From assembly GCA_022703505.1 (NCBI GenBank), contig JAKLDN010000002.1, positions 372,001-436,000 on the forward strand: 64,000 nucleotides of DNA, read 5' to 3'. This stretch comes from Spirochaetota bacterium. Lineage in GTDB: Bacteria > Spirochaetota > Spirochaetia > Treponematales > UBA12059. Position 1 is the stretch's first letter. Each line of letters starts with the position of its first letter. Both the position numbers and the translations under genes were made by a program. The notes beneath the pieces are model-generated. The model worked only from the letters and a program-made list of their open reading frames with translations. It had not been told where the DNA came from and searched no databases. This document shows, in pieces, positions 53,125 through 53,796 of the stretch.

Positions 53125-53153
53125 TTGACAAAGGGGTGGGCGGTCATTATCAT
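53125..53153 (+). promoter_or_regulatory. Strong promoter of tRNA-Thr
   Basis: Consensus TTGACA (53125-53130), 17 bases, TATCAT (53148-53153), about 15 bases before the tRNA. It may also drive rpmG and the following genes if transcription passes the hairpin repeats. Confidence 0.85.
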
Positions 53154-53168
53154 TCCGGCACTACCTAT

Positions 53169-53241
53169 GCCCTTGTAGCTCAGTCGGCAGAGCACATCCA
53201 TGGTAAGGATGAGGTCATCGGTTCGATTCCGATCGGGGGCT
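53169..53241 (+). tRNA. tRNA-Thr(GGT)
   Basis: 73 bases without CCA. Acceptor GCCCTTG/CGGGGGC (with two G-U pairs), D-arm GCTC..GAGC, anticodon stem CATCC/GGATG with loop ATGGTAA giving anticodon GGT, and T-arm ATCGG-TTCGATT-CCGAT. Reads ACC and ACT codons. Confidence 0.95.
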
Positions 53242-53374
53242 ATGCGTCTAGCGATGCTAGACCAAGGCTTCAAGTCGGTTCGCCCTTTGGGCGATCCGAT
53301 CGGGGGCTATGCGTTCAACCGCAGGTTGAACCAGCTTTCAAGTCGGGGCGCCCGCGGCGCACCGATCGGGGGCT
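53242..53374 (+). repeat. Two tandem partial copies of the tRNA-Thr 3' end with enlarged T-arm hairpins
   Basis: The tRNA T-arm plus acceptor 3' strand (TCGG-loop-CCGATCGGGGGCT) is repeated at 53275-53308 and 53343-53374. The seven-base T-loop is replaced by longer hairpins: TTCGCCCTTTGGGCGAT in the first copy, and a GCGCC-CGC-GGCGC stem in the second. Each copy is preceded by another short hairpin, GTCTAGC-GAT-GCTAGAC (53246-53262) and GTTCAACC-GCA-GGTTGAAC (53313-53331), and by a conserved ATGCG start and CAAG before the T-stem. D-arm and anticodon are absent, so these are not functional tRNAs. Confidence 0.85.
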
Positions 53375-53470
53375 GTATTCCGGCGCAGGCCGGTTCTGGA
53401 ACGCGTTTCGGGCCGTGCGATTTCCCTCGGGGCATCCACGGCGGAGAATCTTGGATAGAAGGATAGCGTC

Positions 53471-53644
53471 ATGGCCGCCAAGAAACAGACCGTGGAGATC
53501 ATCGCCCTTGCCTGCAGCGAGTGCAAGCGGAAGAATTACACCACGAAGAAGAACCGGAAGACCACCCAGGAAAAGCTCGAGCTCATGAAGTACTGCCGCT
53601 GGGACCGGAAGTACACCCTGCACAAGGAAACCAAGGTCAAATAA
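53471..53644 (+). CDS. rpmG: Ribosomal protein bL33
   Basis: 57 residues. CSEC near residue 15 and [14 protein letters not shown] at the C-terminus match the zinc-ribbon form of L33. A 50S subunit protein. The ribosome site is AAGGA before the ATG. The 96 bases upstream (53375-53470), between the tRNA-derived repeats and this gene, hold nothing else I recognise. It is the first protein gene of the spirochaete-type order leading to secE. Confidence 0.93.
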
Positions 53645-53724
53645 GCGTTCCGTGATTCCGGGCTCACCCGGAATCGCGTCGTCCGCGGACGGAATTCCCT
53701 TCCGGAGTTCCGCTCGCGGACGAA

Positions 53725-53796
53725 GGCCAGTAGCTCTAATGGTAGAGCGCCGGTCTCCAAAACCGGATGTTGTGGGTTCGAGTCCTACCTGGCCTG
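53725..53796 (+). tRNA. tRNA-Trp(CCA)
   Basis: 72 bases. Acceptor AGGCCAG/CTGGCCT with discriminator G, D-arm GCTC..GAGC, anticodon stem CCGGT/ACCGG with loop CTCCAAA (anticodon CCA) and T-arm GTGGG-TTCGAGT-CCTAC. Its position between rpmG and secE is common in bacteria. Confidence 0.96.

Follow-up and report, generated by a model that had tools for sequence, protein, structure and literature searches.

Why should the 3' end of a tRNA-Thr gene be repeated twice directly behind that gene, in front of a gene for a ribosomal protein? The locus lies in the window, by which we mean the whole 64,000-nt stretch of DNA, from an uncultured member of the Spirochaetota, analysed here, and an earlier note on it had offered three readings of the repeated ends: att-site scars of repeated integrations, a processed tRNA-like decoy RNA, or terminators built from tRNA ends. 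The genome containing the window is called G000, and G001 and G002 are of the same genus; R1 is a model of the short Thr-type unit, and R2 a model of the interior of a longer unit described below. The locus, all of it on the + strand, is made up as follows.

53125..53153, + strand: promoter of sigma-70 type for the tRNA-Thr operon (TTGACA-17-TATCAT), some 15 nt ahead of the tRNA gene
53169..53241, + strand: tRNA-Thr(GGT), parent of the tail (RF00005, 64 bits; CCA not encoded)
53242..53308, + strand: repeat unit 1, 67 nt (R1 model, 80.2 bits; fold)
53246..53262, + strand: perfect 5' hairpin of unit 1, GTCTAGC-GAT-GCTAGAC; this helix 1 covaries at 7/7 pairs in relatives
53265..53308, + strand: acceptor/T-stem minihelix of unit 1, T-loop replaced by TCGCCC-TTT-GGGCGA
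53295..53308, + strand: direct tail copy of unit 1; identity extends to 53314, 20 nt in total
53309..53374, + strand: repeat unit 2, 66 nt (R1 model, 57.1 bits)
53313..53331, + strand: perfect 5' hairpin of unit 2, GTTCAACC-GCA-GGTTGAAC, which also heads the sole unit of G001
53332..53374, + strand: minihelix of unit 2, T-loop replaced by GCGCC-CGC-GGCGC; tail copy at 53362-53374
53471..53644, + strand: rpmG, ribosomal protein L33, 57 aa (PF00471, E 8e-22), the next gene and co-oriented
53724..53796, + strand: tRNA-Trp(CCA); no copy of its own tail was found downstream

The copies of the tRNA-Thr 3' end recur at spacings of 67 and 66 within units that together span 53242-53374, in agreement with the steps of about 67 bases first reported. 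The sequence TCCGATCGGGGGCTATGCGT stands at 53228 (tRNA) and at 53295 (unit 1) with 20/20 positions identical; the tail copy of unit 2, ACCGATCGGGGGCT at 53361, is identical in 13 of the last 14 nt. Each unit opens with a perfect 5' hairpin that differs from the other's, followed by an acceptor/T-stem minihelix closed by the tail copy, in which a longer hairpin takes the place of the T-loop (TCGGTTCGCCC/GGGCGATCCGA in unit 1, CGGGGCGCCCGCGGCGCACCG in unit 2); both traits had been noticed in the earlier note and were found in units 1 and 2. Its description of copied T-arm plus acceptor segments is right for the 3' strand of T-stem and acceptor, the only true direct copy (13-14 nt), but not for the 5' strand, AAGGCTTCAAGTCGG, which is an imperfect complement of the tail and not copied tRNA sequence. 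Computed as RNA, the fold of 53242-53400 reaches -83.1 kcal/mol vs -64.2 +/- 4.1 for shuffles (z -4.6).

Unit 1 starts at the first base past tRNA-Thr on the same strand, and the order of the locus is tRNA-Thr, unit 1, unit 2, rpmG, tRNA-Trp, secE and nusG, all co-directional; secE and nusG are named by position and translation, the closest relative of NusG being a 96% identical protein of an uncultured Spirochaetes MAG. The promoter at 53125..53153 matches the consensus at 11/12 positions, shuffled sequence giving 0.2 sites per region. No terminator-like site was found on the + strand between tRNA-Thr and rpmG, and a U-tract is absent behind the unit hairpins.

The query found a match in each of the 58 genomes searched, in many of them together with a tRNA-Thr–rpmG neighbourhood. 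In the loci retrieved around tRNA-Thr and nusG, to which the reading was confined, the number of complete units between tRNA-Thr and rpmG ranges from zero to two, with three in G050. Many genera in this order lack units at that position, so the Thr units are dispensable. The tail of every unit is that of the genome's own tRNA-Thr (e.g. GATCGAGGGCT, GTTCGAGGGCT, GCTCGAGGGCT and GATTGAGGGCT): GGGGGCT or GAGGGCT follows the tRNA-Thr of the genome concerned, and the T-stem pair (UA, AU or GC) changes likewise in step. When 392 Spirochaetota genomes were searched with R1, eight were detected at E 0.001: seven belong to the window's own family, the eighth to a different family within the order. The number of tandem short units per locus is two in the window and one to three in relatives, the three of G050 (family f5, locus L197) standing behind tRNA-Thr. 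In G009, another genus of the same family, two short units follow tRNA-Cys and carry the tRNA-Cys tail (L199), which indicates that the short unit is not tied to threonine and that its tail follows the host tRNA.

A hand-taken alignment of 21 units scores 0.400 vs 0.155 for covariation, with 14 of 24 pairs changed on both sides, and the signal is located in the 5' hairpin, the T-stem and the hairpin replacing the T-loop. For the 29 distinct units found by R1 the covariation score is 0.483, compared with 0.178 +/- 0.012 for shuffles and at most 0.110 when the partners are slid; 18 of 24 pairs vary on both sides and 93.6% of cells are paired, in an alignment that was fitted to R1 and is so biased towards the model, as the 21-unit alignment is not. 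Paired columns of the short units include 85 G-T against 5 A-C combinations, and therefore the folding strand is the tRNA-sense strand. CAAG before the T-stem and a G-U at the T-stem base are near-invariant, and the least conserved helix is that of the acceptor-like 5' strand (86.8% paired), where the G050 units hardly pair. According to the covariation, each Thr-type unit folds on the sense strand into a 5' hairpin followed by a tRNA-like minihelix, the 3' strand of which copies the 3' end of the parent tRNA.

The sole unit of G001 is headed by the hairpin of window unit 2, and that of G002 by the hairpin of window unit 1, with a mixed interior. We infer that these single units would represent an ancestral pair minus one, lost by recombination between repeats; recombination between identical tails is supported as the probable means by which unit number shifts. 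Unit DNA had no match in a phage collection. A scan with Rfam over the locus and the flanks downstream of other tRNAs returned nothing above cut-off except tRNA and SRP RNA.

The earlier note had suggested looking for similar tails behind other tRNA genes, and the outcome is positive in this genome and in relatives. For the tRNA genes found, the flank behind each gene was scanned for repeats of that tRNA's 3' end; such copies follow 16 of the 45 tRNAs in the window's genome and 16/43, 14/42 and 11/33 tRNAs in three relatives, the last from another family; serine tRNAs of one cluster share tails, so that one unit may be counted for two neighbours. The control with other tRNAs' tails (652 pairs) gave three direct copies, eight inverted copies and no case of both. 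Most own-tail copies belong to a larger unit than the Thr type, with the order tRNA, hairpin or terminator, inverted tail, an interior of about 100 nt and a direct tail typically of 18 nt that spans C56 of the T-loop to base 73. Long units are often repeated, each repeat with its own terminator. Since the inverted and direct tails pair, the long unit likewise closes with an acceptor/T-stem duplex, of which the Thr unit has an imperfect form. The Thr tail copies of 14 and 13 nt compare with mostly 16-20 nt, typically 18, in long units and with 18-19 nt in the TLRs of E. coli discussed below. The interior folds into a three-way junction, of whose hairpins one is interrupted by tandem G-A pairs and another has an ANGGAN-type loop; the junction is followed by a long hairpin that contains more G-A motifs and has a loop of the form AGGAN or ACGAN. 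Covariation in seventeen long units is 0.407 vs 0.142, and in 27 distinct model-found units of other genomes 0.658 vs 0.173, the latter in an alignment fitted to the model. G-T pairs are only slightly in excess of A-C (36 vs 26), so that the assignment of long units to RNA as opposed to single-stranded DNA rests on loops and conservation. Tail copies stand behind the same tRNAs in different genera.

R2 matches 75 of 392 Spirochaetota genomes (35 of 167 genera). Among the 30 best R2 loci a tRNA is present in the fetched flank of 28, nearly always directly upstream and on the same strand; the remaining two, without a visible tRNA, are short stretches reaching a contig end. Seventeen of 20 further loci follow tRNA genes, and the others a tmRNA, a tRNA-like 3' end and a displaced tRNA-Met 3' half, so that 48 of the 50 loci inspected follow a tRNA, tmRNA or tRNA-like 3' end. 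The tmRNA case (L344; G388, contig C1, 670500-671500) has two tandem long units carrying the tmRNA 3' end. The tRNA-like 3' end (L348) was not called by ARAGORN and is possibly selC. The tRNA-Met case (L340) belongs to the window's genome: the tRNA-Met 3' half in front of the unit has been separated from the start of its gene by an integrative element and now lies 28.6 kb away. This 28.6-kb element in tRNA-Met (contig C12 of G000, 40600-69500; L360 and L340) has a tyrosine integrase (PF00589, E 1e-18) directly behind the re-formed tRNA-Met, while the former tRNA 3' half, followed by its repeat unit, is found at the other end of the element.

A whole-genome search with long-unit DNA returned the tRNA-flanking copies and one cassette-array hairpin, the rest being short chance matches. 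On contig C12 of G000, at about 219000-227932 (L221-L226), short AT-rich genes alternate with nearly identical GC-rich intergenic repeats; the genes include one for an MntA-like nucleotidyltransferase and, by eye, a HicA/HicB-like pair, and the whole looks like an integron-type cassette array. The hairpin of this array and the long tRNA units have a 19-nt G-A/AGGA motif in common. The flank of tRNA-Pro GGG in G010 carries a third kind of tail unit, neither of the Thr nor of the long type; it has a short interior, measures about 135 nt and is present three times in tandem. Two approaches were abandoned: a motif search with the short GC-rich CCCCGGCCCGGA was too unspecific, with many matches in apparently coding DNA, and a reading of the inverted tail as a retrovirus-like primer-binding site did not hold, as the CCA complement is not consistently found in front of it.

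In 72 long units the motif CA(N)GGANG was counted 103 times in sense orientation and three times in antisense, compared with 9.2 in shuffled sequence, and 67 of the 72 units have at least one. The window's genome encodes CsrA. Because of their conserved CANGGANG hairpin loops the long units are candidate CsrA-binding RNAs. Such loops are found in 0 of 35 Thr units, for which reason the Thr pair is not filed with the CsrA-binding RNAs of the RrA/RrB/RrF type, to which the long units may belong.

These observations are best accommodated, and with reasonable likelihood, if the Thr units are compact tRNA-linked repeats (TLRs) that would be co-transcribed with their parent and excised as small RNAs through reuse of the tRNA 3' processing signal. 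From the promoter upstream of tRNA-Thr a single transcript would run through the tRNA and both units, and it probably continues into rpmG, tRNA-Trp, secE and nusG, because there is no terminator in between. A nuclease maturing tRNA 3' ends, of the RNase Z or RNase E type, would cut after the tRNA and after each unit, as the tail is the signal for tRNA 3' maturation; by analogy with RrB of E. coli, the tRNA would be released together with two RNAs of some 66 nt, leaving a trimmed message for rpmG. The promoter and the absence of a terminator at the Thr locus fit such transcription with the parent and processing to small RNA. At most other tRNAs the long units, placed after a terminator, would be made by read-through, and low expression of most of them is to be expected because terminators stand in front. 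We favour the view that the Thr version is an operon-internal derivative that kept the processing module; here the place of the terminator is held by a hairpin without a U-tract, as expected since transcription must reach rpmG. Of the three options first proposed, the processed tRNA-like RNA comes nearest to this reading, in its favour being the covarying sense-strand structures, the operon without a terminator before rpmG and the TLR architecture. More generally, the spirochaete tRNA-linked repeats probably make small RNAs. A bolder proposal, which we put forward only tentatively, is that spirochaetes have a genome-wide network of tRNA- and tmRNA-linked small RNAs with a single branched fold and CsrA-type loops in common, which would report the output of tRNA genes to CsrA, each excised by the tRNA 3' signal; the short Thr and Cys units would then be a second class with the same processing module and another partner.

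The 3' ends of tRNAs are classical integration sites, and attL and attR look like direct repeats of a tail, so that one readily thinks of att copies that remained after mobile elements had repeatedly integrated and excised. The presence of the Glu-TTC unit in G000 and its absence from G001, a gain of structure, tail and terminator together, could be read in the same way. The real integration at tRNA-Met differs, with its adjacent integrase and a displaced tRNA 3' half 28.6 kb on; no element lies between the Thr copies, and no match to the units was found in the phage collection. Scars would account neither for the inverted tail nor for the presence of units at the same tRNAs in different genera, and they would not keep covarying folds across families. 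The 29 distinct units keep their fold through compensatory changes and are therefore not scars; this origin is largely refuted and very improbable. A different kind of mobile DNA is conceivable, a cassette whose folded single strand mimics the duplex tRNA 3' end and is inserted behind tRNAs by a recombinase in the manner of integron attC hairpins. The tail helix of the unit does represent the tRNA 3' end as a duplex, tandem units each have their own leading hairpin or terminator, and units are gained and lost between genomes. However, ordinary unequal recombination explains the tandem copies of equal score and the hairpins common to G000, G001 and G002, no recombinase was found linked to the units, and tails matching the local tRNA would call for a tRNA-specific element for each gene. 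Loops of the CsrA type, together with the marked excess of G-T at Thr, speak for RNA, and we regard the cassette origin as improbable.

The minihelix with its authentic acceptor 3' strand, its near-invariant CAAG and G-U at the T-stem base, and its site between a tRNA and ribosomal and transcription genes would suit a tRNA mimic that titrates RNase Z, the CCA-adding enzyme, EF-Tu or ThrRS, or an element regulating rpmG-secE-nusG in cis. Such a role seems doubtful to us, since the acceptor-like 5' strand is the very helix that is least conserved, units also stand behind tRNA-Cys outside the operon and are missing from most genera, and there is no link to ThrRS. Terminators or attenuators built from tRNA ends are most improbable: the stable hairpins do lie directly behind the tRNA, in the position that real terminators hold at other tRNAs, but they lack a U-tract and any terminator-like site on the + strand, and the co-directional rpmG, tRNA-Trp, secE and nusG follow. 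The preferred reading, compact tRNA-linked repeats processed to small RNAs, brings us to the systems with which they can be compared.

TLRs of E. coli were described by Egan and Landy (1978) and Rudd (1999) (as described in PMC8144298). They are defined as standing directly behind a tRNA or rRNA gene in 1-5 copies per locus, with a 3' end that equals that of the upstream gene over 18-19 bp; they have no agreed function, an early claim for the tyrT repeat having been retracted, and for the repeated tail a role as nuclease signal was proposed by the authors of PMC8144298. The spirochaete units likewise stand directly behind the parent gene, in tandem, and end in the parent's 3' tail. They differ in that the class is found at about one third of a genome's tRNA genes, that a single conserved branched fold and an inverted tail are common to the long units, and that the Thr unit, of 66-67 nt with a 13-14 nt tail copy, has a minihelix with a hairpin-capped T-stem. 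Our searches, made in an open-access library, returned no earlier description of spirochaete TLRs.

RtT (RF00391) at tyrT-tyrV of E. coli consists of tandem 178-nt units behind tRNA-Tyr with direct and inverted tails as in the spirochaetes. In tyrV-rttR our tail scan placed the direct copies at +159, +337 and +515 and the inverted ones at +59, +237 and +415, the same arrangement as in the spirochaete long units, and the tandem G-A motif reported in RtT (PMC7657543) is also seen there. The rtT repeats differ in being without CANGGANG loops, and the interior of the spirochaete Thr unit is quite different. RF00391, which gives 133-138 bits in the E. coli control, does not reach its gathering score of 45 bits at the window region or the units of eight spirochaete genomes, weak matches lying elsewhere; the spirochaete model finds the rtT repeats (17.4, 16.3 and 11.3 bits) and rrB (14.8 bits) weakly, at the right place and on the right strand. 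The genes rrA, rrB and rrF lie behind 5S genes between two terminators, and their RNAs, made by read-through of T1 and processed, bind CsrA and Hfq (PMC8144298). The spirochaete long units likewise lie behind a first terminator and end in the parent's tail, and would be made by read-through, and the hairpin loop C-AGGAC-G of RrA, RrB and RrF is as in these units; the parent differs, being 5S rRNA, and the same tail scan of rrB gave a direct copy of 13 nt and found no inverted copy. TD-2 (RF03162), known from Treponema, matches a region behind tRNA-Pro of the window's genome on the opposite strand at 36.1, against a gathering score of 48.7; its first loop is also of the AUGGAU type, but it covers other hairpins and not the tail units. 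Beside this sub-threshold match (L156, 144-239) tRNA-Pro GGG has a 30-nt copy of its tail.

By their defining anatomy the spirochaete units are, as a class, TLRs, whatever the descent of their RNA folds in relation to those of E. coli; a tail copy of 18-19 bp is reached by the class but not strictly by the Thr pair. Since 1978 TLRs have been regarded as an oddity of enteric bacteria; their occurrence in about a fifth of the sampled Spirochaetota genomes, at many tRNAs and at tmRNA and with a strongly covarying fold and CsrA-type loops, provides comparative data that E. coli alone could not give. In the compact Thr and Cys units the tail minihelix is what is common to all, the interior being exchangeable, and with predicted cut sites and a predicted protein partner the purpose of the repeated tRNA tail becomes directly testable.
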